Source: Homalodisca vitripennis (taxonomy: Eukaryota; Arthropoda; Insecta; Hemiptera; Cicadellidae). Taken from it: a stretch of 64,000 nucleotides of DNA. Position numbers and translations under genes: made by a program. The notes under the pieces are model-generated. The model saw only the letters and a program-made list of their open reading frames with translations, had not been told where the DNA came from and made no database searches. The stretch covers positions 1-64,000 of the forward strand of contig NW_025776236.1 of the NCBI RefSeq assembly GCF_021130785.1. Reading direction: 5' to 3'. Shown one piece after another: positions 6,345 to 46,847 of the stretch; positions within the stretch are counted from its first letter, which is position 1; each line of letters begins with the position of its first letter.

Positions 6345-6350
6345 CCTATG
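6345..6350. repeat. Target site duplication, left copy (CCTATG)
   Basis: CCTATG directly abuts the left terminal inverted repeat and is repeated exactly at 36560-36565 beyond the right repeat. A 6-bp duplication is the known signature of Polinton/Maverick integration. Confidence 0.95.
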
Positions 6351-6742
6351 AGTAGACCTTGCGCCCCTTGCGGACAGGGCTCTGATTGGTCGAGAGGGGG
6401 TCACGTGATCCAAGATGGCGGCTAAGCTCCGCCCCCTGCGGGAGAAATTCCCACATGTGCGGGAGAAATTCCCTCATGCGCGGGAGAAATTCCCTCCTCA
6501 CACTCTTATCCTAGTGTTTTGGGGTGATTTTGGGTGTCAAAATCGTTGTTTTTCGGTTAAAATCGGTGATTTTGGGTGTCAAAATTGTTGTTTTTCGGTA
6601 AAATCGGTGATTTGTTGGGTCCGGTGAGGGAGAAGAAACGAGGGACGGAGGGAATTCCAACATGGCTGCGCCCATGTATCACGTGATCAAAAAAAAAAAA
6701 AAAACCATTATGGCCGCGCCCACGTAAACATAACCTCACTTT
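6351..6742 (+). repeat. Polinton left terminal inverted repeat
   Basis: The reverse complement matches 36173-36559 almost base for base, with small indels. It starts AGTAG, GC-rich in an AT-rich neighbourhood. Internal repetition is visible: three tandem copies of a ~20-bp unit containing CGGGAGAAATTCC (about 6439-6500) and two copies of a ~45-bp unit containing GATTTTGGGTGTCAAAAT (about 6524-6612). Confidence 0.96.
6385..6436 (+). promoter_or_regulatory. Promoter-like factor-site cluster in the TIR
   Basis: Within 52 bp the repeat holds an inverted CCAAT box (ATTGG, 6385-6389), an E-box in GTCACGTGATC (CACGTG 6402-6407), a YY1-type site CAAGATGGCGGC (6411-6422) and a GC box CTCCGCCCCC (6427-6436). 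A second E-box, TATCACGTGATC, lies at about 6677-6688. All are mirrored in the right TIR. Motif identities come from animal factor consensus sequences; promoter activity is inferred. Confidence 0.5.
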
Positions 6743-7071: not shown

Positions 7072-9343
7072 TTACCTCGGGAGGTATATGTTGAACCTCC
7101 CCACGATTAACGCTCGGCACGTGGGACATGTGTGTACTCTGTCGGCACAGGCCCGACAGAGAGTATGACCGCACAGCCGAAGAGCAACCGTGGGAAGATT
7201 CACCATACACACAGGACACTCAACTTTACGCGGCTGTGACAGAGGGGTCTCCTCGGCGTCCGGGGGTGGAGGAGTGGTGTTATTACGCCTGGCATCCTCC
7301 ATTCTTTCCCCAACGGATCGTAGGAAATTCTCCAAGTCCTCACGAAGCTCCCGCCAAGTTTGCGGGGCGAGTCTGATCTGTCGCCTATGGTCGGTATCTA
7401 GAAGGATGCGACTGGCCGTCCATTGCAGCTCCCGCATCAGTACTCGGATACTGTGGAGGGCCGCAATACATTCCCGCGCCCCCCAATCACTGACCCTGGG
7501 CTAAAACAGAAGAAGAAGAAGAAAGATTACATCACTTGTAAACAAGTCATAATGTACAATTCGAGTAATTCAATACCGCGTACCGTAGGCTGAATTTGTG
7601 GGAGCTCCGGTGACGGAGGTATTGAGGGGGCGTACTCTGACGACGATAGGAGCGTAGAGCCAGACTCCGTTGACGATCCGCCGGCCGGTGAGAGGCCTGA
7701 GAGGCCATCATGGAATGGTACCGGGGAGGGCGGGCGAGTCGGAGGAGTGCGTGACGGTGCGACAGAGGGATTCGCCACTTCCACGACCCTGGACTAAAAC
7801 AGAAGAAGAAGAAAGATTACATCACTTGTAAACAAGTCATAATGTACAATTCGAGTAATTCAATACCGCGTACCGTAGGCTGAATTTGTGGGAGCTCCGG
7901 TGACGGAGGTATTGAGGGGGCGTACTCTGGCGACGATAGGAACGTAGAGGCGGACTCCGTTGACGATCCGCCGGTCGGTGAGAGGTCATCACGGAGTGGT
8001 ACCGGGGAGGGCGGGCGAGTTGGAGGAGTGGGTGACGGTGCGACAGAGGCGTCTACGGAACGGCGCCTCTGAGAGGTGTCATAGCTGTTATCGTCACTGC
8101 CCGCAGGCAGTGACCATCCCCAAACGCCTGTCCTCTGAACAGCTGCAGACTGTGATTGAGACAGCAATGCAGGCTGCAGTGAGCTGATCTGTACATATAC
8201 ATACACCCTCAGATATGCTATTTATCACACATCCGTAAATTGTACTTTCAATTGATGGAACTAACCCTTTGATCCAGACTAGTTTCATCCCAGACCTCCT
8301 GCGGCTCGTTCAGGCGATCCAACAGTTCCGTGATCTCCCTATCGTGCTCTTGACTCTCCGCCCGGTCAAGAGCCTCGACAAGGTCGGACTCTGCAAACAT
8401 CTGTAAAACACGAGGAGAATCATCAGTGTACGCCGCTAACCGTTCAATATCGGTACATAGATGAGAGAATGGTTATTACCTGCCCAAGATCCTCGTCACA
8501 GAACTCCATGTAGTCCTCCACACGTCTCTTTTACAAACAAACAAACCCGTTAGTCATAAATTCCTTAAGGTAGTACATACGTAAAGTGTAACACGTAAAA
8601 TATCACAGTAAAACTCACAATAGGCCTGAAACGGTGAGGAGCCAACGAAAAGACATCCTCTATCACGCAGATAGGTCGCGCCGTCTGCAAATAATACAGA
8701 GGATATAAAAATTGAAAAAACCTGTCATATGACGAAAAAAAAACAACATTAGTACTATTTTACGTACCGTAGTGGGAATGGGTACCGGCTCACTGCGGGG
8801 TCTGGCGGGGTCCTAAAACAATATTTATAAGTTATGCGATACATGTGCTAGACAACAACAACAACAACAACAACAGAAAACAAACACGAAACAAACACTC
8901 ACTTCCTGACCTCTGCGAGACCACCCGCTCACCGACCAACCTCCACGCGATGTCGATGGTCGAGCCTGCAAATAATTCTGTATCAGTAATAGATTTCATT
9001 AAAGTGTAGGCTTAACGGTGTTGAATATAAACGTACCAAGTCTATGGCTCCATCATCGTTCCCTGTCCAACCGTTTGTAGACGCCGTCGAGGGTTGTTCC
9101 TAAACATTAATCGAACATTACTAAATAGATCAGTAAAACAGTATAACATTTACATGAAATTATTGCATGACTTACGTCTTCACTGCCGGCTGATACCACA
9201 CTCAGGAGTGCGAGAATCAACAGCAATACTGTAGTGTTCCCGATCCTGGCTCTAGGGGCACAACACAGTACTCCCAGCATGACCACGAACATGGTGGTGG
9301 CCATGAGGAAGCAGACTATGGCTAAACGTTCACAGTCGGACAT
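7072..9343 (-). CDS. Ten-exon membrane-anchored RING-finger protein (IAP-type RING)
   Basis: The predicted protein is 513 aa. Exons, in order: 9343-9176, 9099-9037, 8965-8903, 8812-8768, 8684-8619, 8527-8480, 8400-8266, 8188-7874, 7793-7584 and 7500-7072. Every intron is GT-AG with good donors (GTAAGT, GTACGT, GTGAGT), and every exon length is a multiple of three with phase-0 ends. Exon 1 (ATG at 9343) encodes two hydrophobic segments, so a membrane anchor is likely. The middle is Pro/Ser-rich. The last exon ends in a C3HC4 RING with CPVC, CGH, CRAC and CPTC, resembling the C-terminal RING of IAP proteins, so an E3 ubiquitin ligase role is inferred. No BIR domain is seen. Exons 8 and 9 are partial duplicates. 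The gene is convergent with the left TIR and has its own TATA box. Splicing is predicted, not proven. Confidence 0.75.
7501..8071 (-). repeat. Tandem exon-plus-intron duplication in the RING gene
   Basis: About 285 bp, covering the end of an intron and most of an exon, occurs twice at an offset of 290 bp (281 bp after a 9-bp deletion), for example GATTACATCACTTG at 7525 and 7815. The exon parts encode near-identical Pro/Ser-rich segments ending LPQIQPT. Both copies keep donor and acceptor sites. Confidence 0.9.
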
Positions 9344-9376: not shown

Positions 9377-9386
9377 GCTTATATGC
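9377..9386 (-). promoter_or_regulatory. TATA box of the RING gene
   Basis: On the minus strand GCATATAAGC lies 34-43 bp upstream of the ATG at 9343, implying a very short 5' leader. Confidence 0.5.
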
Positions 9387-9557: not shown

Positions 9558-9845
9558 ATGACAAATTTGCTACCTCCCAACATATTTTTTTTGTACCTCA
9601 CCAATGACAGGACTTCTCAACTCAATGCCGAAACCCTGTCTCTCGGTGAGATACGTTTTATTTTATACTTTATTTTTTATTTTTTTATCCTCGCGAGTGT
9701 AACAAGTAACTTTACTCGGAGAAGCCTTTCAATGTAACTCGTAAAACACTCGCAAAGACTTTTTTTATTTTTTATTTTTATTTATTTTACAGCATCTAGA
9801 GCGAGGTACATACCCCTGGACTTACGGAGTTTAGGCCTGCCATAG
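9558..9845 (+). CDS. Possible two-exon small protein (46 aa), tentative
   Basis: An ATG at 9558 opens 29 codons to a strong donor (CTCG|GTGAGA, exon end 9645). A T-rich tract ending TTTTACAG gives an acceptor before 9793, and the joined phase-1 frame runs 16 further codons to a TAG at 9843-9845. The second exon enters the repeated hairpin family, as does the last exon of the plus-strand gene at 31025-31569, but in a different reading frame. The similarity may therefore be at the DNA or RNA level, and the protein may not be real. Confidence 0.28.
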
Positions 9846-9952
9846 AGGTATCTGTCACACACATACACACACACAACTGCTCCCGGTCTTACGGAGTTTA
9901 GGCCTGCCGTAAGAGCAGTTGAAAGCCCCAGGACTTACAGAGTTTAGGCCTG
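9809..9952. repeat. Hairpin-family repeats, left cluster (3 copies)
   Basis: Three copies of a core with GAGTTTAGGCCTGCC preceded by CTTACRG. Each is bounded by a different short inverted repeat: ATACC/GGTAT (copy 1), CAACTGCTC/GAGCAGTTG (copy 2, plus an inner CTTACGG/CCGTAAG) and AAGC/GCTT (copy 3). Related copies lie at about 31431-31625. A short CA-rich tract separates copies 1 and 2. Confidence 0.7.
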
Positions 9953-9962
9953 CCTTAGGAGC

Positions 9963-10436
9963 TTACCACTCACTCACCCCACCCCGCTCTAGAGCTTTTT
10001 TCAAAGCACAAGCATAAGTGAAGCCACTATTATGTTGAGGCAGAATACAGTGAGTATCGGAAACGATTGCTTCCTGACTTTCAACTACATTTCTATCAAC
10101 TACGTTATTATGAAAGCTGGACAGAAAGTTGACCTTTTCAAGTCCTTTAGTATATACAGTAGCAAAGGGTTTACAAAGAGCGCGTATCAGCTCCTCATCG
10201 TACTCTATACCACCCTCCTCCCACTTGATGTTGTGAAAGTGGCGCTCCAGCCACCGAACGGTTCTGGCCATTTTAGAATTTAACTCCGCTTTATCGTATG
10301 GAGGCTTGAATACGATGTGTGCACGAAAGAGATGACTGATTATTACAAACTCTTTTACAATAAATCGATTGTCATTATCTTTAAAAGCGTGAAACTCAAC
10401 TATCGCCTCCATTTGGCCACCGTTTGAAAAGTTCAA
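9963..10436 (-). CDS. Putative RNase H-fold nuclease-like protein of insect Polintons (157 aa)
   Basis: Start ATG at 10436. The N-terminal strand pattern (IVEFHAFKDNDNRFIVKE), a central conserved block around TVYTKGLEKVNFL and a C-terminal Cys/His part (THCILPQHN) resemble, from memory of family patterns, a widespread short protein of insect mobile DNA thought to have a DnaQ/RNase H-like fold. The expected acidic residues are not clear enough to claim activity. It overlaps the upstream gene by 41 bp in another frame, in the compact style of this element. Confidence 0.45.
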   Translation of the reverse strand: MNFSNGGQMEAIVEFHAFKDNDNRFIVKEFVIISHLFRAHIVFKPPYDKAELNSKMARTVRWLERHFHNIKWEEGGIEYDEELIRALCKPFATVYTKGLEKVNFLSSFHNNVVDRNVVESQEAIVSDTHCILPQHNSGFTYACALKKALERGGVSEW

Positions 10437-10971
10437 TTTCGAGAGACAGCCTGTGAGCTATGTGACTAGGGAGGAGGTCACTGTCACTGTTTTCAATTGC
10501 GGTTTTAACAGGCTCCTCAATCAAGAACAGATCTCTCAATACGATATGCATCAGTGGGATGTTGGCAGTGAACTGATTCCACTCGTGTTTGTTAAGCGTT
10601 AATGAATGTTCACCGTCGTAGATGAACACACATTGCTTACCAAATACGTTGATGACCTTGATATCCTCCCCACCATCCGCCTTTACGTAAAACCTATGTG
10701 AGGTCTCCAAGGCTAGACTAATGCTATTGAAGTGTTGTGAAAACTCGTTAAACACATCGAATGACCAATAAACGCAACCCTTTTTACCCTTAAACAGTAT
10801 TCCGAGAGAGTCACCCCGGTTTTTAACAAAACCCACAATCACACACTTTGAAAGATCACAATCAATAAAGTAAACAGACTTAAGAAAAATTCCCGTTAAC
10901 GAGTTTATAGGCTCCTTGCGTCTTGGGATCCTCGTAGGCTCCAGGTCCATAGCCGTTGATGGGTCCTCCAT
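10396..10971 (-). CDS. Unknown Polinton protein, possible PC4-like ssDNA-binding fold (191 aa)
   Basis: ATG at 10971 has a TATA box (TATATAAGG) about 45-55 bp upstream. Two similar segments are visible, one around YWSFDVFNEFSQHFNSI and one around SLTLNKHEWNQFTANI. Each looks like the strand-turn-helix of PC4-type single-stranded DNA-binding proteins. That assignment is weak. The gene overlaps the next one downstream by 41 bp. No transmembrane segment or signal peptide is seen. Confidence 0.5.
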   Translation of the reverse strand: MEDPSTAMDLEPTRIPRRKEPINSLTGIFLKSVYFIDCDLSKCVIVGFVKNRGDSLGILFKGKKGCVYWSFDVFNEFSQHFNSISLALETSHRFYVKADGGEDIKVINVFGKQCVFIYDGEHSLTLNKHEWNQFTANIPLMHIVLRDLFLIEEPVKTAIENSDSDLLPSHIAHRLSLEIELFKRWPNGGDS

Positions 10972-11014
10972 GGTCTCGGTCTCGGTCTTGTATGACCGTA
11001 CCTTCCACAGTACC

Positions 11015-11075
11015 CCTTATATACTTTAATCCTCCGAATTTAGACCAATCAGAGACGCGCTTATTTTGACCAATG
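11015..11075 (-). promoter_or_regulatory. TATA box and duplicated CCAAT module
   Basis: On the minus strand AGTATATAAGGGG (about 11014-11026) lies upstream of the ATG at 10971. Further upstream, 11041-11075 holds two inverted CCAAT boxes flanking GCGCG. This ~35-bp module recurs almost unchanged at about 35990-36024, upstream of the DNA polymerase gene. Confidence 0.55.
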
Positions 11076-11674
11076 AGATTTTTTAGCAGGTGGTGCTTCC
11101 CCCTCCTCCTCCTCCCGTTCGTATGTGAGAGGATCTATCAAAAAAGAGACATAAATTGTGTCACAATCCCTCACATCCCAGACGTCGCCATGGGATGTTA
11201 AATTAGCACAGTCAATGGATCTAAACCCTTTAAATTTTCTGTCCTTGAACAAGCTAGCGTATACTCCGGCTTTTATACCCTTTTTATACCCATTCAGCTT
11301 CACATCATCCTCTCTGCAAAATCTAACCCTAATTCTGTCAAAACCCGTCACATCATACAACGCGCTATTAGGTGTGAAATTAGCACAGTCGAGGTATTTA
11401 CATGTTTTCATCTTGCCGTGCTTCCACAAGGAAGTGTACACTCCGGCTTTTATACCCTGCCTATACCTATTTAGAGCCTGTTTAATAGGACTATTCTCAT
11501 CATCCGTGTCGTAGGCCTCGGGCTCATCGTTTACCTCAAAACGAAGTTCAATTTTGGTAAAGTCCTTAACATCGTAAAAGTCGGTATAGGATGTAAAATT
11601 AGTACAGTCGAGGTGTGTCCCAATATTTTCCTCTCTTCTTCTTCCTTATAACCGCGAATGTATAACCGCGCCAT
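11061..11674 (-). CDS. Triple cysteine-repeat protein, frameshifted
   Basis: Three repeats of about 45-55 residues share a D-C-(T/A)-N-F/L-T core, an F/Y-D-V stretch and a hydrophobic strand, linked by G-I-K-A-G-V-Y. The first repeat is preceded in a different frame by an ATG at 11674 with a Lys/Glu run. A one-base indel in the GAA-rich run near 11645-11657 separates the frames. The C-terminus is acidic then basic. The spacing of strands loosely recalls beta/gamma-crystallin repeats, but this is only a suggestion; function unknown. Confidence 0.5.
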
Positions 11675-11782: not shown

Positions 11783-12866
11783 TTACATCATACGTTTTAC
11801 GTTACCGGTAAGCAGGGTGTACGCCATGTGGGAGTCATGCAAGAGGAGACAGTATGCCGTCGTGTTTGCCGGAAAATTATTTTTCGCCTCAAATTCCAAT
11901 CTCACGTCTACTGGTCCCGACTTGAGCGAATCGTTCTGTTTAGAACAATCAATCACATAGAGTGGTGCGTGGGACTTGAATTTTTCAAAATCAACGGTAG
12001 GCGCTCCCGGTTTCTGATAGTACGAGCTTTGGAATCTTGTAAACATCTCGTAAAAAATGCACAAGTCACCGTGGACATTGTCGTAAGGATAATATTGCGA
12101 ATTCAAATACAGTCTTACATTTGTCAGGTCGCAACGGTCAAAAGAAGACGCATCCTTTTTCAGATCATTTTTTCTTCCTGTCTGAAATGCCAAAACAACG
12201 TAGCGGGGTTTCTCAATTTGAGAACTCGTTTTTATCGTCCAACTCTGACGAGTCGTTTGTGGTAAAGAGGGGTATTCGTGGATTTCCCAGGACCGAAACG
12301 GCAGGTGAATCAGAGTATCTTTCTCAATAACACGAAATAATTTCAATTTGTAACTGTCGGATACAGTAATGTGTGGAACACGCCAGTAGAGCGAGGTTAT
12401 TTCAAAGTCGAGGTTAACCGCATCCGTGCTTTTGACCGCGTTAATGTCGGTAGCCGACCTCAAGATAATCAGTTCCTGTCTGACATTGACCACGATCTTT
12501 TTATAATCCTCAGCAAAACCCAGCAACAGTTTTAAAGGCACTGAATATGTAAATTCACTGGCCTGACCGGTTTCACCCGGACCTAGCCAACATGCATTCA
12601 AGAGACCAGCCTCCTCCTCTTTCCTGATGGAAATCAGTCCTTTTATTGTACTTGTAATACCTACATTTTTCACCCTGTCAACCTCTATACCGCCGATCTC
12701 GTACCTTATATCGTCGAATAAAAATGCAATAGCGTTGTTTATTAATGTAACACTGGCCGCGGCCCCATCCGCCTTCTTGGCACGCACTTTTCCGCTGATG
12801 TGTAAACTGCTTTCGAACGGTGCTGTAATTATATCCTGTTGACTGATTGGAATCCTGATTTCGTCG
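11783..12866 (-). pseudogene. Major capsid protein (double jelly roll), main part, split by Gypsy insertion
   Basis: About 361 codons from the insertion point to the TAA at 11783. Recognised as the Polinton double-jelly-roll major capsid protein by blocks such as RSWEIHEYPSLP, EKPRYVVLAFQT and APLYVIDCSKQN. Virions of this lineage use such proteins as pseudo-hexameric capsomers. The N-terminal ~35 codons lie beyond the retrotransposon at 21896-21999. The two parts plus one copy of the 4-bp duplication sum to 1188 bp, exactly 396 codons including stop, so the gene was open before insertion. An ATG inside the LTR (12925) reads into this frame but is not the native start. Confidence 0.85.
12863..12866. 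repeat. Retrotransposon target duplication, left copy (GTCG)
   Basis: GTCG abuts the LTR at 12867 and is repeated at 21892-21895, a 4-bp duplication as expected for Ty3/Gypsy integrases. Confidence 0.9.
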
Positions 12867-14709
12867 TGAAACCTGACATCGCCGCCCGCACACCCACAGC
12901 AAACATCAGGGAAGCGCGCGCCCATGGCGGCGAACGGGATGCCGGATCAAAAAAACTAGGTAAAAAAAGAACACCGTGGTCAGCATACTCAGGTTCATTT
13001 ACTTCGAAAACACAGGCCTATCCTGTCAATATAATTATGTATAAATATATATACTATAAATTAAAAAAAATAAAAGTGCCTGCAGTAATATATCTCAAAC
13101 AATCTCCGTCAGGTGCACCTGCATACAAAAATTAGAAATGCCATAATTTGAAACAAGAAATGCCAATTCCACCCGGTATCCTTCGGCTAAGGGCGGGCTC
13201 CTAATGAAATCCAAGAAATAACTAAATAATATCTAAAACTAACTTAAAACTAAATAACAAAATATAAACTATATAAATGGCAACAATAACAATATCACAG
13301 GGTATCACAGGTGTTGAATAGTAGGTATGTCCATCATGGTGGCCGTCCTTCAGCAGCTAGCGCAAAGGCGAAGTTTCTCTGCGACCACGCATGATGGAGA
13401 GATGACAGGATAAAACAATTCATCCCTTGGACCCTGAAACCAGGTTTCAACCTAGTACCCTTTTAAAGTTAATAATAATTAATAAATAGTTGCCAAACAA
13501 TATAGAATTTAATATAAGTACAGTTGCCAAAAGTTATATATCAAGAATTTTAATTAAGTTAAATTACCAAAATTTCAAATATCACAGACCAATCAATTAC
13601 TGATAAAAATTAAAATAAACCTTAATATAGAAGCTGGTAACATTAGAAAACAATAAATAAACAAGATATTCCATTTGAAAGACTAAAACAATAAGTAATA
13701 AAGGAATTTATTTGAGGTATACGCAGTAGCCTACCATACGTAACAATTTGGTTCAAACATTTTTAAAACAGGCATTTATTGACAGAATAGGCTCAAAATT
13801 GGTGAAAAGCAGGGGAAGGGCATTCTGCACTTAAAATAAAATTCCCCACTCAAAACAACAACCCCAAGGAAAGTTAGAATGAAAATCCCCTCTGTCACAG
13901 AACAAAAATTAAGCGTATTACTCTTGGTGAAAAAAAAATAAAATGATTAGGAAAAAACTGATGGCCAAAAGTAGCAGCCTATTAACAGGAAACTAAAATT
14001 TAAAATTTGATGGCAGAAGGCCTTAAATTAACCAAGTAGGCTAAAAAGGGGAGTTGTGGGCTAAAGACCCGAAGAACGTTACATCTCTCAGAAGGCTTAA
14101 AAATTTAGTAAAATGAACCTTCAGCAGTCTCTCTGGGTTTGTTTACAAAAACTACATAACAAGTGACACATTACAAACAATATTGGCTGCAGAATAAAAG
14201 GAACTGTAACATAAGCCTAGGACTGGTCCTCACTGAGAGACAGAAAATTAATATAAGCTGAAGAGAAAGGGTGAAAACTAACAAAAGTGTAAGAGAAATA
14301 ATTTGAAAGCCAATTTAAAATTTAGTTAACAGCCAGAAGTACTAAAAGTTAATAAAAAGCAAAACTACAATTTGGAAAACCATGTGCTCTTAACCTTCAC
14401 AGTTTGAAAAATGAAAATAATCACTAAAATTTAAAAGAAAGCAAAACTTACTCATCAGTGAGGGGCCGTCAACTTAGCTGCACATGTTAGAAGGAGAAAT
14501 GCTCAGCAAAACTAACAAACACTTAAATTTAACAAAATAAATTAAACTGGAGCTGCTCCTAACTAGTACAGCACGGCTCGGAGTCTTTGCCACTCTGCCG
14601 GAAAGGCCAAACGCCTTCAAATGGTCAGTCGCCTCTGCAGCCAATAAACCACACACACACTATATAAAACACACATGAGCCGGGGAGATATAGGTATAGA
14701 ACCGGCTCA
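12867..14709 (-). repeat. 3' LTR of the Gypsy element
   Basis: 1,843 bp, nearly identical to 20048-21891. On the minus strand it starts TGAGCCGG and ends GGTTTCA. It carries no convincing gene; short frames repeated in both LTRs are treated as chance. Confidence 0.95.
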
Positions 14710-14727
14710 GACTCCCCCCCCAAAAGG
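14710..14727 (-). other. Polypurine tract
   Basis: On the minus strand, CCTTTTGGGGGGGGAGTC immediately precedes the 3' LTR. The G-run is the expected plus-strand primer of the retrotransposon. Confidence 0.75.
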
Positions 14728-14981
14728 AGGAACTCCCCTCTGTTAATTTCTTCAAAATGAAGAACCAAACGAAATGCCTCTCCCCCCAATGGTTGAAGAA
14801 AAATAAACCGGAAACCCTTAAGTCTGCAGAAGGGAAAACCAAGAAAATCCAGTTGGAGGCAAGAAAAACCCTCCAAGAGTAGTGTGGGTACAAAGAAGAA
14901 CACAGGACCTTGATCAGGAAGAAGTAGCAGAGGTGATCAGGCCTCTGGACCTAAAACCCTCCCGCACAGACTAAAGAGAAA
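14728..14981. other. Retrotransposon 3' untranslated region
   Basis: Sequence between the pol stop codon and the polypurine tract. No separate gene (no env) is visible. Confidence 0.6.
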
Positions 14982-17900
14982 TCACGGATGACTCCGGCAA
15001 GGCTTCAGATGGGATATGTGCGCCTTCCTGAAAATCTTCCCGGACTGAGGATCTCCCAGTCGGGCAGTCACCGGAGTCAGAAACTTCAAGATGCGGTGGG
15101 GACCAGTCCACCTGTAGCAAAGTTTAGCAGCTCTATTGTCCACAGCCGAACTGACTGGGTGAGCCTTGCAGTAAACTAGATCCCCCACCTGGAAGGGATT
15201 GGCAATACGACCTCGGTTGTACTTCCTCCTTACTAACTCCCTAGCCCGAATGAGATTCCGCCTGGCTGCCTCCCAAGTGGCTTTCACATCGGGAGTACCA
15301 GGAGGTGGCAGAAGATCGCTAATTTTCCAAAGGTTCGCCAAAGGGTTGTTTGGCGGAAAGCCAAATAATAACTCGAAAGGTACCGCCTTGTGACTTTCAT
15401 GCTGGGCCGTATTAAAGGCAAATTGGATCCAAGGTAGTTGTTGATCCCAGGTGGTCTGATTTTTCGCATGAAAGGCAATGAGAGCAGATCGAAGATTGCG
15501 ATTAAACCGTTCGGCGTGAGAAGGCTGAGGATAGAAAGGGGACGTAGTCACATGGCGGATTCCGTGCCCAAAGCACATTCTTTTAAAGATATTGGAGACA
15601 AACTGTGAACCATTATCGGAAACTAAGGTGGCAGGGATTCCAAAGTGTTGAAAGAAATGGTTACGAAGTGCTTGCACCGTGAGCTGCGCGGTAGCACTCC
15701 GCAATGGGAACAACCAAACAAACTTGGAGAAGGCATCCACACAAACAAGTAGGAACTTATTTCCGGACCTGCTACGCGGGAGAGGCCCAACATAGTCAAT
15801 GAAAACCTTCTCCAAAGGTTTTTCCGCCACCTCAGATGACAAAAGACCCAACTTGGTATTTTGAGCGGGTTTGCTTAGCGAGCACAGTTCACAAGAACGT
15901 ACTCGAGCTGCAATATCCCGGTCCATACCTTTCCAGATGAACTGATCCCTAATCTTCGCGATGGTCTTATGAATTCCTAGATGTCCGCCCACAGGAGAAG
16001 AATGAAAATACTGAAAGACCATCGGTACAAGAAAGCTTGGCAGCACTAACTTAGGTTTTCTCCGCTGCTTGTCACGGCAGCATAGAGCACCTCGGTACAG
16101 AAAATAAGGAGGGTGGGCACCTCCGTTTTTAAGCTCATTGATGATAGCAGTCAGCTCGGGATCCTTAAGTTGGTGTGGAACAATGTCCGAAAATGCCAGA
16201 GGAAAGTCTAGGAGCACGCCACAACAGGGCGGCTCTGATAAATCCTGGTGGTCGTTGGGTAAGTGATACATCCGTGACAGAGTGTCCGCTATGATATTTT
16301 GGGTGCCTCGCACGTGCTGCACTGTGAACTTAAGGGCAGAAATTTGGACTACCCAGCGACCAATCTTCCCGAGCTGACGGGGGTGGGCAAGGAGCCAAGA
16401 AAGTGCCTGGTTGTCGGTTTCCAACAAAAATTCTTTATGTTCTAGGTAACGCCTGAACTTGTTAATTCCAAACACGACAGCCAAACATTCCAGCTCATAA
16501 ACAGAACAACTCTTCTTCTCACAAGGGGTTAACGTGCGTGAAGCATAAGCTATGGGCTGCCGGATACCATCTACTTCTTGCGATAAAACAGCAGCAACGG
16601 CTAAGGAGGAAGCATCAGTTTGCAAGACGAACTTACGACTGAAATCAGGCATAGCCAAGACTGGAGGCTGCATCACTGCCTCTTTCAGCTGCTCAAAAGC
16701 AGCCTGTTGCGCTTCACCCCACTCAAACTTGGCACCCTTTTTCCTAAGAGAGTTCAGAGGGGCCGCCACTTCAGCAACATTGGGGATGAAACGACGATAA
16801 AAATTTATCATTCCCACAAAACGGGCAATCCCCTTGGCATCCTTAGGAGGAGGAAACTCCCTGATTGCCTGGGTTCTCTCTGGATCAATACAAACACCTC
16901 GAGAAGAGACAAGATGACCCAGAAGAAACGATATTTCAGGCTGAGCAAAACTCACCTTTTCAGGATTGACGGTAAGGCCAGACTCTCGCAGCCTAGTTAG
17001 AACTTCCTCCAGATGAGTCAAGTGCTCCTCATAACTCTCACTGTACACAAGCAGGTCATCCAGATAGTTGAACACGAACTTAAATTTGACATCATGAAAG
17101 ATAGAATCCAGGAGTCTGGTGAGTGTTTGGGCCCCCACAGCCAAGCCCATTGGCACTCGGGTGAACTGGTACAAATTCCAAGGCACACAAAAAGCAGTGA
17201 GAGGTCGAGACTCGTGTTTTAGTGGAATCTGATGGTATGCCTGGTTAAGATCAAAAATGGAGAAATACTTGGCCTTACCAAACCAGTCGAAAGCAGAATG
17301 CAAATCGGGGAGAGGCACGGAGTCAATTTCTATCTGAGCATTGAGCTTTCGATAATCCAGGACCAATCTGGACTTCCCATTAGGTTTCGGCACTAGAAAC
17401 GCTGGACTGGAAAAATTTGAGCAAGACGGCTCGATAACCCCACTCTTAAGTAAATCATCAATCATATTTCTCAGAATCTCCATCTTGGGCGGAGCAAGCT
17501 TATATGGATGGGAACGTACAGGACGGGTGTCTGTAAGACGAATCTCGTATTCCAAGAGATTGGTCGTACCCAGTTTGTCAGTAAGGACTTCAGGAAAACT
17601 GGAACAAATCTGCCTTATGTCCTCAGCCTCTTTCGGCGTAAGATGTCCTAGTTGGTCAGGAGGAGTCAAGCTCTTATCTTCCATCTCTAAGGCAGCAGTC
17701 CCACGAGACTCGACATCAGAAAAGGGAACGAGCACCCGCCTGGCGAAAGCAAAGAAAACATGACTGGAGGCCAAATCCAAAATCATGCCAGTTTTTCCGA
17801 TAAAATCTGCTCCCAAGATGAAAGGAAAAGTCAGGTCCTTAGCCACCAAAAAGCTCCAATCCCAAGAGAAATAATTAATTTTGATGTGAATCTGGGCACT

Positions 17901-18299
17901 ACAGATAATAGGTAAAGGTGTGCGTGAAGCAGTCCAGCAGATAAGTGAACTAGGCTCAACCTGCCGTATTAGCCCAGAGGATTTTAGATCTTCAAAAAAC
18001 GACAAAGAAATCAGGCTGCGGGCTGACCCAGAATCAACCAGGGCCTTCTGCACCACATTCCCCACAAGCACATCCAGTTGTGGGCAGGTTGAGCGGGCAG
18101 CCCTTACTCCCTGCGCAGCCAGAGCAGCAACCTCCCCTCTCGGCCAACGATGATAACTGTCCCCAAGTCTATTTCTTTCTGTTTTCTTTCTGTTCTGTAT
18201 TAAACCAGCTACCCTTTTACCATCAAAATTAGGTACATATTTGCCCTCAAAATTACCTTTACGGCACGAGTCGGGCTTACTCGTCCGCAAGCTTACTAG
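14982..18299 (-). CDS. pol: Gypsy Pol polyprotein (PR-RT-RNH-IN), expressed by -1 frameshift
   Basis: About 1,100 aa. In order: aspartic protease with VDSGSARS (about residue 86 of the open frame); reverse transcriptase with VLDYRKLN, FDLNQAYHQI and the YLDD catalytic box; RNase H with LQTDAS; integrase zinc finger (GGHLGIHKT ... CELC); integrase core with FIDYVG, VSDNGSQF and HAERFNR giving the DDE triad. The frame has no ATG at its 5' end: it opens just upstream of the gag stop and is entered at the A_AAA_AAC site (18305-18299). It makes the enzymes for reverse transcription in virus-like particles and for integration. No internal stop, so it is probably functional. Confidence 0.93.
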   Translation of the reverse strand, partial: LVSLRTSKPDSCRKGNFEGKYVPNFDGKRVAGLIQNRKKTERNRLGDSYHRWPRGEVAALAAQGVRAARSTCPQLDVLVGNVVQKALVDSGSARSLISLSFFEDLKSSGLIRQVEPSSLICWTASRTPLPIICSAQIHIKINYFSWDWSFLVAKDLTFPFILGADFIGKTGMILDLASSHVFFAFARRVLVPFSDVESRGTAALEMEDKSLTPPDQLGHLTPKEAEDIRQICSSFPEVLTDKLGTTNLLEYEIRLTDTRPVRSHPYKLAPPKMEILRNMIDDLLKSGVIEPSCSNFSSPAFLVPKPNGKSRLVLDYRKLNAQIEIDSVPLPDLHSAFDWFGKAKYFSIFDLNQAYHQIPLKHESRPLTAFCVPWNLYQFTRVPMGLAVGAQTLTRLLDSIFHDVKFKFVFNYLDDLLVYSESYEEHLTHLEEVLTRLRESGLTVNPEKVSFAQPEISFLLGHLVSSRGVCIDPERTQAIREFPPPKDAKGIARFVGMINFYRRFIPNVAEVAAPLNSLRKKGAKFEWGEAQQAAFEQLKEAVMQPPVLAMPDFSRKFVLQTDASSLAVAAVLSQEVDGIRQPIAYASRTLTPCEKKSCSVYELECLAVVFGINKFRRYLEHKEFLLETDNQALSWLLAHPRQLGKIGRWVVQISALKFTVQHVRGTQNIIADTLSRMYHLPNDHQDLSEPPCCGVLLDFPLAFSDIVPHQLKDPELTAIINELKNGGAHPPYFLYRGALCCRDKQRRKPKLVLPSFLVPMVFQYFHSSPVGGHLGIHKTIAKIRDQFIWKGMDRDIAARVRSCELCSLSKPAQNTKLGLLSSEVAEKPLEKVFIDYVGPLPRSRSGNKFLLVCVDAFSKFVWLFPLRSATAQLTVQALRNHFFQHFGIPATLVSDNGSQFVSNIFKRMCFGHGIRHVTTSPFYPQPSHAERFNRNLRSALIAFHAKNQTTWDQQLPWIQFAFNTAQHESHKAVPFELLFGFPPNNPLANLWKISDLLPPPGTPDVKATWEAARRNLIRARELVRRKYNRGRIANPFQVGDLVYCKAHPVSSAVDNRAAKLCYRWTGPHRILKFLTPVTARLGDPQSGKIFRKAHISHLKPCRSHP

Positions 18300-18305
18300 T
18301 TTTTT
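18262..18305 (-). promoter_or_regulatory. -1 ribosomal frameshift signal between gag and pol
   Basis: The heptamer A_AAA_AAC (18305-18299, in the gag frame) is followed at once by the gag TAG. Slipping by -1 leads directly into the pol frame. About 11 nt downstream, CGGACGAGT can pair with ACTCGTgCCG (one bulged base) around a 7-nt loop, a plausible stimulatory stem. Confidence 0.8.
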
Positions 18306-19573: not shown

Positions 19574-20034
19574 ACCAAACAATTAAGACAAATAAATAAA
19601 CAATAAACAACAAAGCGTACGCAAAAAAATACTTAGTAACCTAAGTGGACTCAACTCACAAAAGGCTTACACTGACGAGGTCCAAGTGAAGAACTCAATA
19701 CCTGCCACCTAATAGAAGGATACCCTGCAAATATACACTAACCACAACCTACAAACACAGAAGCAATAAATATAACAAAACAACACATTGATAGGGGAGA
19801 AGTAGAGTACAGTTAGATAAATTTAGCGGTTAAGCAATTTAGAGTCCCTTGCTCCCTGCAAAGGGTAAGTCTGCAGGAAGCAAGACACTAAACCAATTCC
19901 ACCCGGTATCCTGTGCTAGGGCGAGCTCCTAATGAAAAAAAAAATTGTGTACTCTAACCTCCCCCTACCTAACACTAACCTACACCAACAAACAAAACCA
20001 GAACTGAGAGACAGCTGAGAGAGCAGCTAACCAC
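19574..20034 (-). other. Retrotransposon leader with an LTR-like fragment
   Basis: Untranslated leader between primer site and gag. Positions about 19892-19935 (AATTCCACCCGGTATCCT...) repeat, with changes, a segment found in each LTR at about 13163-13206 and 20345-20388. Confidence 0.7.
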
Positions 20035-20046
20035 GCTCTGCTACCA
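20035..20046 (-). other. Primer binding site, initiator tRNA-Met type
   Basis: On the minus strand TGGTAGCAGAGC begins one base after the 5' LTR. It complements a tRNA 3' end ...CTCTGCTACCA, as in metazoan initiator tRNA-Met. Confidence 0.7.
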
Positions 20047-20047
20047 T

Positions 20048-25234: not shown

Positions 25235-25278
25235 CTCGCCAGGTTCTAAAGTAAACTGACGGTAAAAATGTCAACAAC

Positions 25279-26199: not shown

Positions 26200-26235
26200 T
26201 TTGAAACTGTAATCTAAGAGAACATCCTTTACTTT

Positions 26236-27393: not shown

Positions 27394-28530
27394 CTACGGT
27401 AGTTCGACTTGTCTGAAAAACATTGCGCGTTTCTTGTGTTTTCTAAGGTAGTGTATAATGTCACCAAGTGACGCTACCGTACCCAGTTTCCTGAAGTAGA
27501 CTGATCTCGGTATTTGCACTTGCGCTCGTGATCTAAATACAAACGTTCTCTTCCATCCGTCTCTCCACTGCGGGATCTCAGCCACCGTGTACTTGTCATT
27601 CTCTACTGTCTTATCCATGTACTCTTTTAACCGAGCGATAGGGTTCCTCACCCTACCGTGTATATGGATCAGGTATGAGTTGAGTAGCCAGAACTCACAA
27701 GGATTGGCTCCTGTAAATCTCCTCCACGCCTCAAACTGATCACGGTTTGTAATACTATACACTCCGTCCATCAGACTTATTCCGAACATTTCACAGTACA
27801 TAGGGACAGTTGGTAAGGCCACCTTTAGAAATTCTGAAGTAAAAAGGCTCTGGCACAGATTATTTACAGCCGCAAACTCTTTGTTTCTCTCGCCTCTCGG
27901 TAGTCCACGTGGGACCGGCCCGTACGCCACGTTATAGCTGATGTCGCTGTAGCATTTCGAGGCCAGTGCTTGTCTGTAGATTGTAACGGGTTTCCTAATA
28001 GGTATAGTTCGCTCCGTGAGAATGATGCAACGTGAGGTGTGTGGGACTTTACAAGCGTACTCCAACATCTTTATACAGACTTGGGCAAAGTATATACCGC
28101 CGTGTGCGTTTCTCAACGGTACAAGCTTACCGAATTGGTCTGGAAACGGTCTGAATCGGGACAAGAGGTTCTGCGATTCCCGCACAGTACACTTTAACAT
28201 GTCTTCGTGGTATACAACGAGTTCAAACGGTACACCTTTCTCCTGGCTCTTTTTCAAAAATTCTATCCAGATATCGCGGTTATAAAACCGTTCGCTGGAC
28301 GAAATCATTAACAGAATTACAGGAGGAATGGTTGCACTGTACTGTCCTTGGCGTTTGTGTCTCCAACACCTTCTATTGAAAAGGAAACCGTGTGGTGGTC
28401 GTCTGCTACAGTAATTACCGCAAAATTTTTTCTTGTCCGGGTAGTACCACGTACACAGATTTGAGTTGACTTTGTGGAGTCTCTGGTCCGAGAACCCTCT
28501 GATGTCGTTATAAGTGTAGATCCTCACCAT
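27394..28530 (-). CDS. Putative GT14-like (core-2/I-branching type) glycosyltransferase
   Basis: 378 aa. An N-terminal Cys/His cluster (CGNYCSRR ... CWRHKRQG) may bind zinc. The centre reads HGGIYFAQVCIKMLEYACK followed by SRCIILTERTIPI. This recalls the core-2/I-branching acetylglucosaminyltransferase pattern in which a helix is followed by a strand and an 'L-S/T-E-x-x-I-P-[IL]' motif, as in some large DNA viruses. No signal anchor is seen. Its ATG overlaps the ATPase stop as TAATG, suggesting coupled translation. Function is inferred from two motifs only. Confidence 0.45.
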   Translation of the reverse strand: MVRIYTYNDIRGFSDQRLHKVNSNLCTWYYPDKKKFCGNYCSRRPPHGFLFNRRCWRHKRQGQYSATIPPVILLMISSSERFYNRDIWIEFLKKSQEKGVPFELVVYHEDMLKCTVRESQNLLSRFRPFPDQFGKLVPLRNAHGGIYFAQVCIKMLEYACKVPHTSRCIILTERTIPIRKPVTIYRQALASKCYSDISYNVAYGPVPRGLPRGERNKEFAAVNNLCQSLFTSEFLKVALPTVPMYCEMFGISLMDGVYSITNRDQFEAWRRFTGANPCEFWLLNSYLIHIHGRVRNPIARLKEYMDKTVENDKYTVAEIPQWRDGWKRTFVFRSRAQVQIPRSVYFRKLGTVASLGDIIHYLRKHKKRAMFFRQVELP

Positions 28531-29252
28531 TATAGATCTTGAACAAAACTGTCTATACCTACTCGGTACCTCCCTTTATCAATGTCATCGTCCTTGCTAA
28601 TGACGATAAAACCGTGTTTGTCCTTCCACGCCATACTGCACAACTGTTTGAATTTTTCAAATCTCATATCGGTATTGACGTGATCACTGTAAGCGTGGTG
28701 TAGATTCATATCATCCTGTTTGAAGAGTATTATGAAATTTGCATTGTCTCTGACCAGCTGTTTCGGTACGTGACTGTAGGTTTGACCGAGATAGAATGTA
28801 TCTACGTTCTTGTGCCTCCCCATAGCAAAGTAACTGCGGATATTGCCGTGCTTTTCGCAAGCTATATCGTCAAAAATCATCAAAGAGTTTTCCTTAGCCT
28901 CGTCCGGTTTAATGACCAGGGAGCTATCGTCGTACGCGAAATACCCTACTTCCTTCGGTATCATTTTAGCCAGTAATTGATACTTTGGTTGGTACAATGA
29001 CTTTGAAAATACGTACACATTCTCGAATCGTAATCCGTTCGGATCGGTGATCAGATTGAATAACACGTTTGTTTTACCACAGTTTGAAGGACCTACAATT
29101 AAACCTCTTATCGAGTCTGGTAAAAGCGGACCGTTTTTGTTTTTGCGACTTAAACCGCTACCTATATACTCGTCCATGTTGTGGACGTTAAACGTCGTGG
29201 CTTGCTTTACGAGCTTCATTTTGGTAATGACGGTTCCACGGTATTGCATCAT
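28530..29252 (-). CDS. Genome-packaging ATPase (A32/FtsK-like)
   Basis: 240 aa. Walker A GPSNCGKTN near residue 54 and Walker B LMIFDDIA near 122 fit the FtsK/HerA-type ATPases that pump DNA into virions of Polintons and related viruses. The frame is intact. It starts 3 nt after the integrase stop and ends in a TAATG overlap with the next gene. Confidence 0.88.
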   Translation of the reverse strand: MMQYRGTVITKMKLVKQATTFNVHNMDEYIGSGLSRKNKNGPLLPDSIRGLIVGPSNCGKTNVLFNLITDPNGLRFENVYVFSKSLYQPKYQLLAKMIPKEVGYFAYDDSSLVIKPDEAKENSLMIFDDIACEKHGNIRSYFAMGRHKNVDTFYLGQTYSHVPKQLVRDNANFIILFKQDDMNLHHAYSDHVNTDMRFEKFKQLCSMAWKDKHGFIVISKDDDIDKGRYRVGIDSFVQDL

Positions 29253-29255
29253 GTT

Positions 29256-30197
29256 TTATAATTTACTTTCTTTTTTTTTAGGTTTAATAATATCTTTGGA
29301 GTTTACCCAGCTATTGTGAGTATCGTCAAAACCACGCCACCGCACCAAGACCTTGGAGCCTTTCCGCCGGAGTACTTTATCAACGAGATAGGCATTTCCT
29401 GTTGCGGTTCTTATCAGTTCCTGTTCATAGAAACCGCCTTGCAAAATGTCACCTCTTATGTCTTGTAATATATACGTTACAGGTTTTGTAGGTTTTATCG
29501 CAAATATTGTAAATATTTCATTTGACCAGTTGGGTAGATATCCTTTTTTAAATACACCTTTGTATTTGCTAATTCTAACCTGATCGCTTACACGGAATTT
29601 GGGATTTTTTGTTTTAACCACTTTATTATGTTTATTTATGCGGGCGAGAATCTGTTTTACGTGTTTTCGTCTAACATCTTTTGGTTTCATACCGATTGTC
29701 CTGTGCACACTACTGTTGTACTCCTTGACTATGTATGGTAAAATACTTAACCACTCGTAGCTACCGTGTGCCGTAAATCTCTCGTACATTTTTTCTTTCA
29801 GGGTTCTGTTTAGACGTTCCACAATAGAACTTTTCAAATGTGATTGGGTAGAGTAATGGTTAATGCTGTGTTTGTTTAAAAGTTTTTTAACGTGACTGTT
29901 GTACCATTCTTTACCGTGGTCCGTTTGAAAGTTTTTCATCTTGTGTTTAGACAGTATAGATTCTAGTGCATGCGCGACTTCAGCGCCGGTCTTGTTCTTT
30001 ATAGGAACGGCAAACGCAAATTTTGAGAAACAGTTTAGCATCGTCAGTATATACTTGTAACCTCTGTTTACTCTCGAGTAAGGTATCATCTCTACAAGGT
30101 CGGCTTGATACAGGTCATTAATTCCTTTCAGCGTAACCCTGCGTCTGGGGTAATTACGCCTAGCCGGTTTGTGCAGTTCTTTCGCTATCGCGTCCAT
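29256..30197 (-). CDS. Retroviral-type integrase with chromodomain
   Basis: 313 aa from ATG at 30197. Core triad: Asp in QADLVE (~33), Asp in QTDHGKEW (~93) and Glu in VERLNRTL (~127). A C-terminal chromodomain is visible (VLRRKGSKVLVRWRGF ... SWVNSKDI), which may guide integration to marked chromatin. It catalyses integration of the linear genome and makes the 6-bp duplication. No clear N-terminal HHCC zinc finger is present in this frame. Confidence 0.93.
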   Translation of the reverse strand: MDAIAKELHKPARRNYPRRRVTLKGINDLYQADLVEMIPYSRVNRGYKYILTMLNCFSKFAFAVPIKNKTGAEVAHALESILSKHKMKNFQTDHGKEWYNSHVKKLLNKHSINHYSTQSHLKSSIVERLNRTLKEKMYERFTAHGSYEWLSILPYIVKEYNSSVHRTIGMKPKDVRRKHVKQILARINKHNKVVKTKNPKFRVSDQVRISKYKGVFKKGYLPNWSNEIFTIFAIKPTKPVTYILQDIRGDILQGGFYEQELIRTATGNAYLVDKVLRRKGSKVLVRWRGFDDTHNSWVNSKDIIKPKKKESKL

Positions 30198-30229
30198 TTT
30201 GTAAATGAAGAAAAGATAATCTGTATACC

Positions 30230-30241
30230 GGTATTTATATT
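30230..30241 (-). promoter_or_regulatory. TATA box of the integrase gene
   Basis: On the minus strand AATATAAATACC lies about 33-45 bp upstream of the integrase ATG. Confidence 0.5.
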
Positions 30242-30251
30242 CGTCTAAGTG

Positions 30252-30379
30252 GTGTGGTTTGGAACACCCACATCGAACACTCGCATGCTCGATGCCCAGG
30301 TTAAACAGTATTTGATTTTGAGGGCCAATCCAGAAGTAACTGGTTGTCGCCCTGTGATCAAATACTGTCCCATCCCTTG
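30252..30379 (-). ncRNA. Conserved folded element, copy B (3' of the 172-aa gene)
   Basis: Same block order as 6867-6994. In plus-strand terms: GTGTGGTT, GGAACAC, hairpin CATCGA/TCGATG, CCCAGGTTAA, then a 12-bp perfect helix ACAGTATTTGAT/ATCAAATACTGT enclosing AGGGC/GCCCT and CCAG/CTGG, then CCCATCCCTTG. Helix sequences differ from copy A while base pairing is kept, which is covariation. It begins about 13 bp after the stop codon at 30393 and ends just upstream of the integrase TATA box, so it could act in 3' end formation or translation control. Confidence 0.55.
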
Positions 30380-30392
30380 TTGCTTAGACGGT

Positions 30393-31949: not shown

Positions 31950-34900
31950 TTACTTGTAAGTTTTTAGCCTTTTACTGTAACCGAATGGTAGAGTTTCATA
32001 CTTACCTTCGTGTTTGCGTTTTGGTCCAGTCACTTTAAACATTTTAGTCTCTTCTACGGTAATTATGTTTCTGTCTTTAGTACGCCTAATGCGGTTCTCA
32101 GTGATCTCTAATGATTGCTTGCTTTCAGAAAGTACCATTTCTTTTAATTTTGAAAAATTTAGTTTTTCACTAGTTTTTAAATTTAGAGTAAGGCCTTTTA
32201 TTTTACAAACTTCAACTAGTGCGTTTTTATTAGTGGACCAAACAAGATAGGCATAAGTCTTGGGGCCTCCGGAAACAAATTCTACTATGTATGAGTCTGG
32301 ACCATAGTCGGCCAACTCGTCGGTCATTTCGCCCAAGTAGTCCCCTGTGGGGACACTGTACGAACCTTCCTTACGTATGTACAATACACTATCGGTATCA
32401 TAGTAAAGTACTTGTTTGCCTATTCGATCTAAGTAACTGTACAGCTTAAGTCTAGCGTGTGCGGTGGTGAAGGCCGCGAGCACAACATTTACGGTTCGCA
32501 GGGATTCACCGACTTCGTCTATGTTCTGCCAGTTAACAAGGAGGACCTCTTCGTTAATTTCTTGAATGACGTTTACTTGTGTCCCGGGACTTGTTAGTAA
32601 TTTAAAAAACTCGTCGGGTTCTCTAATGATGGAAGTTTTAGTTTGGTTCTCCCTCTGTCCGAATTTTCCCCAAAACGAATTTAGCATCAATTTTGCGAGA
32701 GAGCGAAGACCCCCGTTTTTTTCAATTTTGGAAGGGTCGAGTCTGACACCTTCGTGTTTATAATAATTTTGAATATACACGGCTTTATCCTCTTCTGTGA
32801 GGCACCAGGAGGGGTAGCCCGATGCCTCCTGTTTAATTTTTAGAAACTTATTTACAAAATCGGTAAAAAGGCCACCGTCTTCGTAAGTAATGATTTTATA
32901 ATCCCAAAGCTCGTACATTTCTAAGATGGTATACCCCTTCTCTACAGCCTTTCTCATTTCCTGCATCGTCCATGTCCCTGTCAATGCTCTTTCTTCGGTG
33001 TTATGATTACAGTCTGTGTTTAGCATTTCTAGACCACATGTACGGCATAAGACAAACATTAATTTATTGTTCATACGTGTAGGGAGGACGGGGTGGTACA
33101 AATTTAGCGGAGGCGATACTTTACATTTTAGGAGTCCTTCGGCCTCCATGCCTCTTTCTCTACACTCCTTGTCACCTACAAAGATTTTTGGATGGGATAA
33201 AACATAAGGCAAAAACTTATTGACAAACGGGTACAAGGAGCAAACGTCTACATACTGAATTGTTTCCCCGTCCTCGCACTTGTGGAAGGTTTTAGCATTA
33301 CCTGTCCTTCCCCCGAAGAAGGCATCTCTGGGATTGAGTGGGAGTGTGTTTAGAATGGGGAGAGAATTTAGATAATCCAAATTTTGTTCTTTCTTTATTT
33401 TATTGAATTCACACTCCCACATTTCAATAACTTCGTATCCGGAATTTTGGAGTTTATCTATTTTGGATTTGGTTCTCTCGAACCTTAAGTGCAGGGAGTC
33501 TGAGGGATCATCGGGCAAGGATGCTTCCCTATCGTATCTGAAACATTTTGGGCACCCATGGAAATAACAGCCCTGAAATTCGTATACGCGCTCCCCGTCA
33601 AAACCGTCTACTTTCATACCGTCAATTTTTACTTCTCTTTCCCGTCCTGCGTGTTGGATCCTAATACCGCGTTGGTCTTCCTCCCAAGTAAGCCATTGTA
33701 AAGCAATAGGCGATTGGTTATCAACCATACGGTATCCGTTCTTTGGGACTAGACCAATAGTGTTGGCTTTGAGAAAATTCCGTCTAAAAACCAAATTACA
33801 GGCGCTGGCTATGGTGACGGCTTCCATGAACGGGTCTACGTTACATTCTTTCAAAAACATGTTTCTAAACTTAATACACGCTTGCGCCAGTATCTCCACA
33901 TCGGAGATACAGTACTCGACCAACTCTTTTTGAAAGTCAAAAACTACATTTTGTTTAAGTTGATCGTTGTGCCAATTTTCAAAATCTTTGTAAGACTTCT
34001 CAAACATTGATTCAGGGCAATAGTACTCCTTGGGTGGTATGGGGCCTACATAATTTTGGTTTGCCAAAGTGTTGAAAAGATGAGGGAAGTAACCCTTCTT
34101 CTTCTCCGGGGGGAGATCAAAGGCTTTGGGTAGTGCAGAGAGGGCCATGGGGAAATAATTTAGCGAATCGATAAATCTGACGTTATCTAATTCCATAAGA
34201 ATGACTTTAGTGCCACGCATAATTAGCTCTGGAGTGAATTTTGATTGTTCGAGAACGTACTTTAACAGAAATTGAAAGTCGAAACCCTGACCGTTATGAG
34301 CCATTACACATACGTTTTTGAATTTTTTTCTCTCCTCCATTACGTAATCCATGAATCTTACTACAGGGTCTTGTCTAAACACACGAGTGCGGGAGGTACA
34401 ATTTTGGCAATTTTCCCCACCAATGCATTTCCAACAAAATTGTTGAGAAACACAAAGGTTAACTTTATGAACTCTAGATTCTTCCGTTAAAATTTCATCT
34501 TGACGGGTCTCTAAATCAAAGAAAATGAAAAGAAAGTCTTTGGTTTTGGGTTTTCCTGTGTCGACCCGCATGTAGCACTGGTGGTTTGGGGCCATGAACT
34601 CGTTACAGATTTTACAAAACACTTCCCCGCACACGTGTTTTGACTTACGATTGTTCAAAAACACAAGTCTTTGGCACTGTAAGCATTTTTTTACCGACTT
34701 ACAACGTTCACTCTTGTGGGCCGCGAAACAAATCTGATTTTTCATGGTCATGTTACAGTCAGGGCACAAAATTCCCCCATGCTCCTCTTTACAAGGCGGA
34801 GAGAAACGGATTGACATGCAGGACAGATATTTGAACACCTATGTACACCTTTGTGGTCGTAAGGGACATGGCATGCTTCACAATAGAAATGGCACGCAAA

Positions 34901-36172: not shown

Positions 36173-36559
36173 AAAGTGAGGTTATGTTTACGTGGGCGCG
36201 GCCATAATGGTTTTTTTTTTTTTTTGATCACGTGATACATAGGCGCAGCCATGTTGGAATTCCCTCCGTCCCTCGTTTCTCCCTCACCGGACCCAACAAA
36301 TCACCGATTTTACCGAAAAACAACAATTTTGACACCCAAAATCACCGATTTTACCGAAAAACAACGATTTTGACACCCAAAATCACCCCAAAACACTAGG
36401 ATAAGAGTGTGAGGAGGGAATTTCTCCCGCGCATGAGGGAATTTCTCCCGCACATGTGGGAATTTCTCCCGCAGGGGGCGGAGCTTAGCCGCCATCTTGG
36501 ATCACGTGACCCCCTCTCGACCAATCAGAGCCCTGTCCGCAAGGGGCGCAAGGTCTACT
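36173..36559 (-). repeat. Polinton right terminal inverted repeat
   Basis: Reverse complement of 6351-6742 with small indels, ending ...CTACT at the 6-bp target duplication. It carries the same E-boxes, YY1-type site, GC box and internal repeats. Confidence 0.96.
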
Positions 36560-36565
36560 CCTATG
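36560..36565. repeat. Target site duplication, right copy (CCTATG)
   Basis: Exact copy of 6345-6350. Confidence 0.95.
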
Positions 36566-46840: not shown

Positions 46841-46847
46841 AACCGAA

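Follow-up and report, generated by a model that had tools for sequence, protein, structure and literature searches.

The ten-exon gene carried by a Polinton/Maverick element of the leafhopper Homalodisca vitripennis is best explained, with a probability that we put at roughly 60%, as an element-borne candidate for a membrane-targeted RING ligase, which would be spliced in the normal way and whose symmetric exons would permit the gain and loss of exons. According to this reading, the RING gene would be true cargo of a family of leafhopper Polintons and would undergo splicing. Its product would carry one or two hydrophobic N-terminal segments that route it into the secretory or membrane system, then an extended middle region rich in Pro, Ser and Thr, and at the C-terminus a C3HC4 RING that is probably dimeric and likely acts as an E3 ubiquitin ligase. 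Most transcripts would probably be present in the full spliced form, and internal exons could be lost, duplicated or occasionally skipped without damage to the frame, since every intron is in phase 0. Copies of the gene would differ mainly via exon turnover at the DNA level.

The element comprises positions 6351-36559 (30.2 kb) of the window, i.e. the stretch of 64,000 nucleotides that was analysed, and is bounded by long TIRs and by a 6-bp TSD on both sides (Table 1). Pfam matches identify the Polinton core set, consisting of the type B DNA polymerase (PolB), the integrase, the packaging ATPase and a jelly-roll capsid-type gene. In line with the preliminary description, which had assigned the RING gene to a Polinton, the gene is located inside the TIRs beside these four genes. 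In addition, the ORF 22769-23173 yielded a weak match to the Peptidase_C5 family of adenovirus-like cysteine proteases, which at 16.5 bits stays below the cut-off of 21.3. Scans for viral-contig relatives of exon 10, the jelly-roll protein, PolB and the integrase confirmed none, and phage records contained four distant polymerase matches. Blastn detected no further pieces of the element in the flanks within the window.

Apart from these genes, a Gypsy-type LTR retrotransposon (about 12867-20430, pol ORF 14982-18305) is nested in the Polinton and reaches into the jelly-roll ORF at its 5′ end. Its two LTRs are identical over a 300-nt part, which makes a very recent insertion probable. A matrix metalloproteinase is encoded in a single frame by the ORF 23678-25270, where peptidoglycan-binding-like, M10 and hemopexin domains were matched; it is likely another host-derived cargo gene on the same Polinton. 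The fibre-like ORF 25279-26235 shows matches to the T7 tail-fibre N-terminal domain and to the YadA stalk. Closer to the RING gene, the overlapping ORFs 9963-10457 and 10396-11016 correspond to one continuous stretch in the related model P0013, and the ORF 11061-11645 contains internal repeats of about 59 residues (two found by computation, a third by eye), without a Pfam match. Moreover, a recurrent, partly palindromic motif around TTTAGGCCTGCC with four exact matches occurs in gene-poor stretches of the Polinton (9830-9954 and 31450-31461). Outside the element, the right host flank displays a strong GC skew at 46001-50000 (0.20 and 0.34 in two 2-kb windows).

Table 1. Features of the Polinton/Maverick element and of its RING gene; positions refer to the window.
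Feature	Position	Strand	Basis or remark
Left TSD CCTATG	6345..6350		Sequence comparison
Left TIR, about 392 nt	6351..6742		386 of 387 aligned bases identical to right TIR, 5 gap positions
Exon 10, 429 nt with stop	7072..7500	-	Helical-modelled segment (low confidence), then C3HC4 RING and C-terminal tail
Exon 9, 210 nt	7584..7793	-	Tandem duplicate of the 3′ part of exon 8 plus its intron
Exon 8, 315 nt, Pro/Ser/Thr-rich	7874..8188	-	Gene model
Exon 7, 135 nt, acidic	8266..8400	-	First codon ATG, start of models P0023 and P0028
Exon 6, 48 nt	8480..8527	-	Missing from models P0017 and P0018
Exon 5, 66 nt	8619..8684	-	Missing from model P0016
Exon 4, 45 nt	8768..8812	-	Missing from model P0012
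Exon 3, 63 nt	8903..8965	-	Gene model
Exon 2, 63 nt	9037..9099	-	Gene model
Exon 1, 168 nt	9176..9343	-	Start codon, two hydrophobic segments, basic loop, signal-peptidase-like VSA/G end
CATATAA, TATA-like, possible promoter	9379..9385	-	About 40 nt upstream of start codon
Neighbouring ORFs 9963-10457 and 10396-11016, overlapping, different frames	9963..11016	-	Parts joined to RING gene in models of other loci
Double jelly-roll protein ORF	11783..12946	-	PF21738
Packaging ATPase, Pox_A32 family	28530..29255	-	PF04665
Integrase (rve) with chromodomain	29256..30383	-	PF00665
Type B DNA polymerase	31950..34838	-	PF03175
Right TIR, 387 nt	36173..36559		Aligned with left TIR
Right TSD CCTATG	36560..36565		Sequence comparison

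The RING gene is read on the minus strand from position 9343 to 7072 and comprises ten exons and nine introns, with a CDS of 1542 nt encoding 513 amino acids plus stop. The exon-intron design that had been proposed holds base by base: the lengths of all ten exons are divisible by three, all nine introns start with GT, end with AG and are in phase 0, and the five middle exons 2-6 measure only 45-66 bp. The introns are 71-91 nt in length, and read-through in frame 0 encounters a stop in eight of them, the exception being intron 4 (83 nt). With eight single-ORF genes of the Polinton as training set, the codon score sums up to +36.5 in the predicted frame versus -68.5 and -90.5 in the other frames; taken individually, exons 3 and 9 show no preference for the predicted frame.

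Among the matches listed we found at least 36 protein homologues, 34 of which are named, all from H. vitripennis. The two unnamed ones, P0035 and P0036, match weakly, via a RING or a Sina-like domain. Among the matches listed, none is named from a species other than H. vitripennis; as two of the three underlying searches scored the roughly 8000 candidates sharing most words, absence from other species is not proven. J6590 tags are attached to 33 of the 34 named models, the exception being P0001, a piece of 121 amino acids inside exon 10. According to the accessible text of PMC8496328, which names BioProject PRJNA717315 for the public RNA-seq of the species, the J6590 annotation was generated by Funannotate trained on leg RNA-seq. 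The database models are predictions using the same kind of splice signals and are consequently only partly independent of our gene model; moreover, some of the H. vitripennis models may be alleles or lie on a shared contig.

For the exon-wise comparison we employed 28 models (P0001 to P0028, the eight models found later being left out) and counted an exon as present if more than half of it was aligned and more than 40% identical. By this measure, exon 1 is found in 15 models, exon 2 in 15, exon 3 in 14, exon 4 in 11, exon 5 in 13, exon 6 in 12 and exon 7 in 18, while nine of the 28 (P0001 to P0009) cover the last exon or little more. Conservation of the short exons in relatives, on which the preliminary description had made its proposal depend, is thus seen at the level of predicted proteins, eight of the 28 models retaining all five. 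All ten exons pass the threshold in P0011, P0013, P0014, P0015 and P0019, with the qualification that P0015 is partly in another frame in exon 9 and P0019 in exon 10, and that P0014 reads the end of exon 5 differently. The diverged model P0026, which is 78% identical to P0011, shares with the window 50/56, 16/21, 19/21 and 13/15 residues in exons 1-4 and 20/22, 15/16 and 43/45 residues in exons 5-7, respectively; its RING frame is lost and it yields no Pfam match. Parts in another frame or from elsewhere are present in P0014, P0015, P0017, P0018, P0021 and P0025, and the models P0010, P0019, P0020, P0026, P0032, P0033 and P0034 do not contain a complete RING. A second H. vitripennis RING subfamily (P0006-P0009, P0029-P0031 and P0034) has another N-terminal sequence; where its last exon can be aligned, identity amounts to about 57-62%, except for P0034 with 45% over a third of it.

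Neighbouring Polinton ORFs (9963-11645) are included in 11 of the 36 homologous models, in agreement with the position of the RING gene between the TIRs as part of a mobile unit. In nine of these 11, the ORF 9963-10457 runs into the RING gene via the stretch just upstream of the start codon. The CATATAA sequence in front of the ATG suggests that the RING gene may have its own promoter and that the fused models may be annotation products. From the neighbouring ORFs we infer that the loci of other models may likewise be Polintons, as indicated in these 11 of the 36 models only.

The homologous models and the gene itself display traces of exon turnover. Exon 9 together with intron 9 repeats in tandem the 3′ portion of exon 8 along with intron 8, which reduces the number of independent phase-0 introns to eight. 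Introns 8 and 9 are identical at 80/80 compared bases apart from a 3-nt repeat difference, whereas the stretches common to exons 8 and 9 show differences at 16 of 186 compared positions, of which 12 are non-synonymous and 4 synonymous (pN 0.092, pS 0.073; Fisher p 0.004 for exon versus intron). Without the first four codons, the homology of which is doubtful, 10 of 174 bases differ (p 0.03). Positive selection on the duplicated exon is not claimed, since a 116-nt identical run extends from the intron into the exon and renders gene conversion an equally good reading. In place of exons 8 and 9, a single exon is present in P0021, P0022, P0024 and P0026, among others. Moreover, P0024 joins exon 1 directly to exon 4, P0012, P0016, P0017 and P0018 each lack one short exon (Table 1), exon 4 is in another frame in P0017 and P0018, and P0021 reads exons 3 and 4 differently. 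These absences are consistent with symmetric exons tolerating loss; with one model per locus, skipping and copy-specific exon loss are not distinguishable from the models.

Alternatively, by analogy with micro-exon genes, the short phase-0 exons could represent alternatively spliced cassettes, from which numerous versions of a membrane ligase directed at the host would result. Every internal exon is symmetric, and eight of them would allow for up to 256 combinations. In addition, in-frame alternative splice sites exist, as the longest phase-0 chain in the real sequence (ten exons, 1566 nt) differs from the model and exceeds it by 24 nt. Correspondingly, exon 8 starts further in in P0013, P0014 and P0028, and exon 3 starts further out in P0017, P0018 and P0022, which carry an NYLQ extension as from an in-frame upstream acceptor; the lack of a single short exon in P0012 and P0016 would fit as well. 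However, these models stem from different loci and may reflect changed splice sites or the choice of the predictor, and most donor sites of the gene are near consensus, which favours constant inclusion. On balance we regard this alternative as unlikely, and its specific form, in which regulated skipping of the eight internal exons would turn one Polinton copy into a generator of many ligase forms toward host targets, as slightly less likely.

We return to the reading of a normally spliced gene for a membrane-targeted ligase, and to its protein. Exon 10 matches PF13920 with 36.5 bits (cut-off 27), and this domain is above the cut-off in five of the six long models scanned, without any other Pfam domain. 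The zinc ligands follow the pattern C-x2-C-x11-C-x-H-x2-C-x2-C-x6-C-x2-C, i.e. the C3HC4 order. In an alignment of 11 sequences all eight ligands are invariant, and the tail pattern GRFxIxLP as well as the Arg directly after the last Cys, which we take to be the linchpin position, are nearly so. By what is established for IAP and MIB RINGs, a C-terminal tail of this kind is compatible with dimerisation, and an Arg in this position with an active ligase. By analogy, the RING of this gene is probably dimeric and likely an E3 ubiquitin ligase. Among solved structures the closest sequence match is RING3 of MIB1, followed by the RINGs of cIAP1/2, BIRC7, TRAF6, BRE1 and XIAP, with RNF4 also listed. 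The assignment of an IAP-type RING to the C-terminus is hence supported by sequence, with MIB1 RING3 best and the IAP RINGs next, and a BIR domain was found by the Pfam scan neither in exon 10 nor in the six long homologous models. The structure prediction for exon 10 reached a pLDDT of 58, too weak for use.

With ligases of the MIB1/IAP kind the Polinton gene shares the C3HC4 RING at the extreme C-terminus and the hydrophobic tail; it differs from them by the N-terminal hydrophobic segments and by the lack of other Pfam domains in the models scanned. Viral membrane RING ligases (MARCH-like K3/K5) combine membrane segments with an N-terminal RING-CH. The likeness consists in a virus-type element encoding membrane segments plus a RING, whereas the Polinton gene has a C3HC4 RING at the C-terminus and nine introns.

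The proposed N-terminal membrane anchor corresponds to two hydrophobic stretches encoded by exon 1, with a basic loop between them and an acidic stretch thereafter, the charges being -1 at the N-end, +2 in the loop and -5 on the C-side. The second segment terminates in a signal-peptidase-like end, VSA/G or ASA/G, in the models holding that stretch (VSAD in P0017), so that a cytosolic RING is not assured. Together, the charge pattern and this end argue for a lumenal or secreted C-terminus, or for cleavage. A C-terminus outside the cytosol conflicts with the function of a ubiquitin ligase, since a lumenal RING would be unable to ubiquitinate, and this conflict is the main difficulty of our reading. 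Alternatively, translation may start at the later Met, where the models P0010 and P0033 begin, and the second segment would be a cleaved signal peptide; the protein would be secreted, its RING being either a remnant or active only after delivery into another cell. The VSAG/ASAG ends and the negative charge following the second segment are in accordance with such a protein. However, the invariance of all eight RING ligands in the 11 aligned sequences suggests that selection maintains a functional RING within a reducing compartment, and we consider a secreted product rather improbable.

The nine introns distinguish the RING gene from what is reported for vertebrate elements. In intact vertebrate Mavericks the genes are described as intronless in the accessible text of PMC8097293, which cites Kapitonov and Jurka 2006 as agreeing; for these elements, the premise that Polinton core genes lack introns is supported. 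Nematode Mavericks are reported to capture cargo, e.g. wosp proteases and krma kinases (PMC10680173, accessible part). Like these, the RING gene is an accessory gene of an element that also encodes polymerase, integrase, ATPase and a capsid-type protein; it belongs to another gene family and has nine introns. Both reports would fit a host gene that was captured at the DNA level together with its introns and remained unadapted to, and without function for, the element. This view is at variance with the lack of a relative named from other species among the matches listed, with the uniformly short introns, and with the 11 of 36 models that keep the gene beside the same neighbours, and we deem it very improbable.

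The likeness to schistosome micro-exon genes (MEG) and aphid bicycle genes, to which the preliminary description had pointed, holds for the design with short symmetric exons and not for membership in either group. With MEG the gene shares many short exons, mostly multiples of three, and a hydrophobic N-terminus; the RING domain and the location in a mobile element belong to the Polinton gene. According to the accessible text of PMC10526429, MEG exons measure 6-81 bp, mostly 15, and their introns 0.1-5 kb, compared with exons of 45-429 nt and introns of 71-91 nt here, and we therefore rejected this assignment. Bicycle genes are likewise hemipteran and contain several small internal exons of one phase. 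Their internal exons are almost all in phase 2 (PMC9168663, accessible part) and all are in phase 0 here, which excludes membership; the RING in a Polinton gene is a further difference. The giant planarian Gypsy-like element Burro1 is reported to contain ubiquitin- and apoptosis-related motifs, including AIR1 (RING Zn-finger) and BIR (PMC6431247, accessible part). When compared by motifs, it is similar as a mobile element with such motifs, and it is an LTR retroelement, not a Polinton. Among the matches listed from open-licence PMC papers we found no report of an animal Polinton gene that encodes a RING or is rich in introns, and no work on H. vitripennis Polintons, and the accessible text of PMC4028283 does not mention intron, RING or ubiquitin. 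By its architecture the gene is akin to symmetric-exon genes without belonging to the MEG or the bicycle genes, and it represents a new form of Polinton cargo.

Finally, the gene could be a prediction artefact or a decayed pseudogene, since the RING frame is lost in some models and, with exons 1 and 10 fixed and the middle shuffled such that dinucleotides were preserved and the GC mosaic was not retained, a chain of any phase arose in 8 of 300 shuffles, three of which equalled or exceeded the observed chain in length; this is hardly credible given that a phase-0 chain reached the end in 0 of 300, that exons are individually conserved in other models, and that GC content alternates between exons (0.584) and introns (0.319).

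Taken together, the recurrence of a nine-intron gene in related models would mean that at least one product of the Polinton requires nuclear splicing, and its symmetric exons would be the material on which exon turnover acts in a virus-like element. The RING protein is added to the known cargo of Polintons, may have a role in the life cycle of the element and offers an entry point to the ways in which such elements may interact with host cells. Moreover, the nine junctions make the expression of such insect Polintons testable in RNA.
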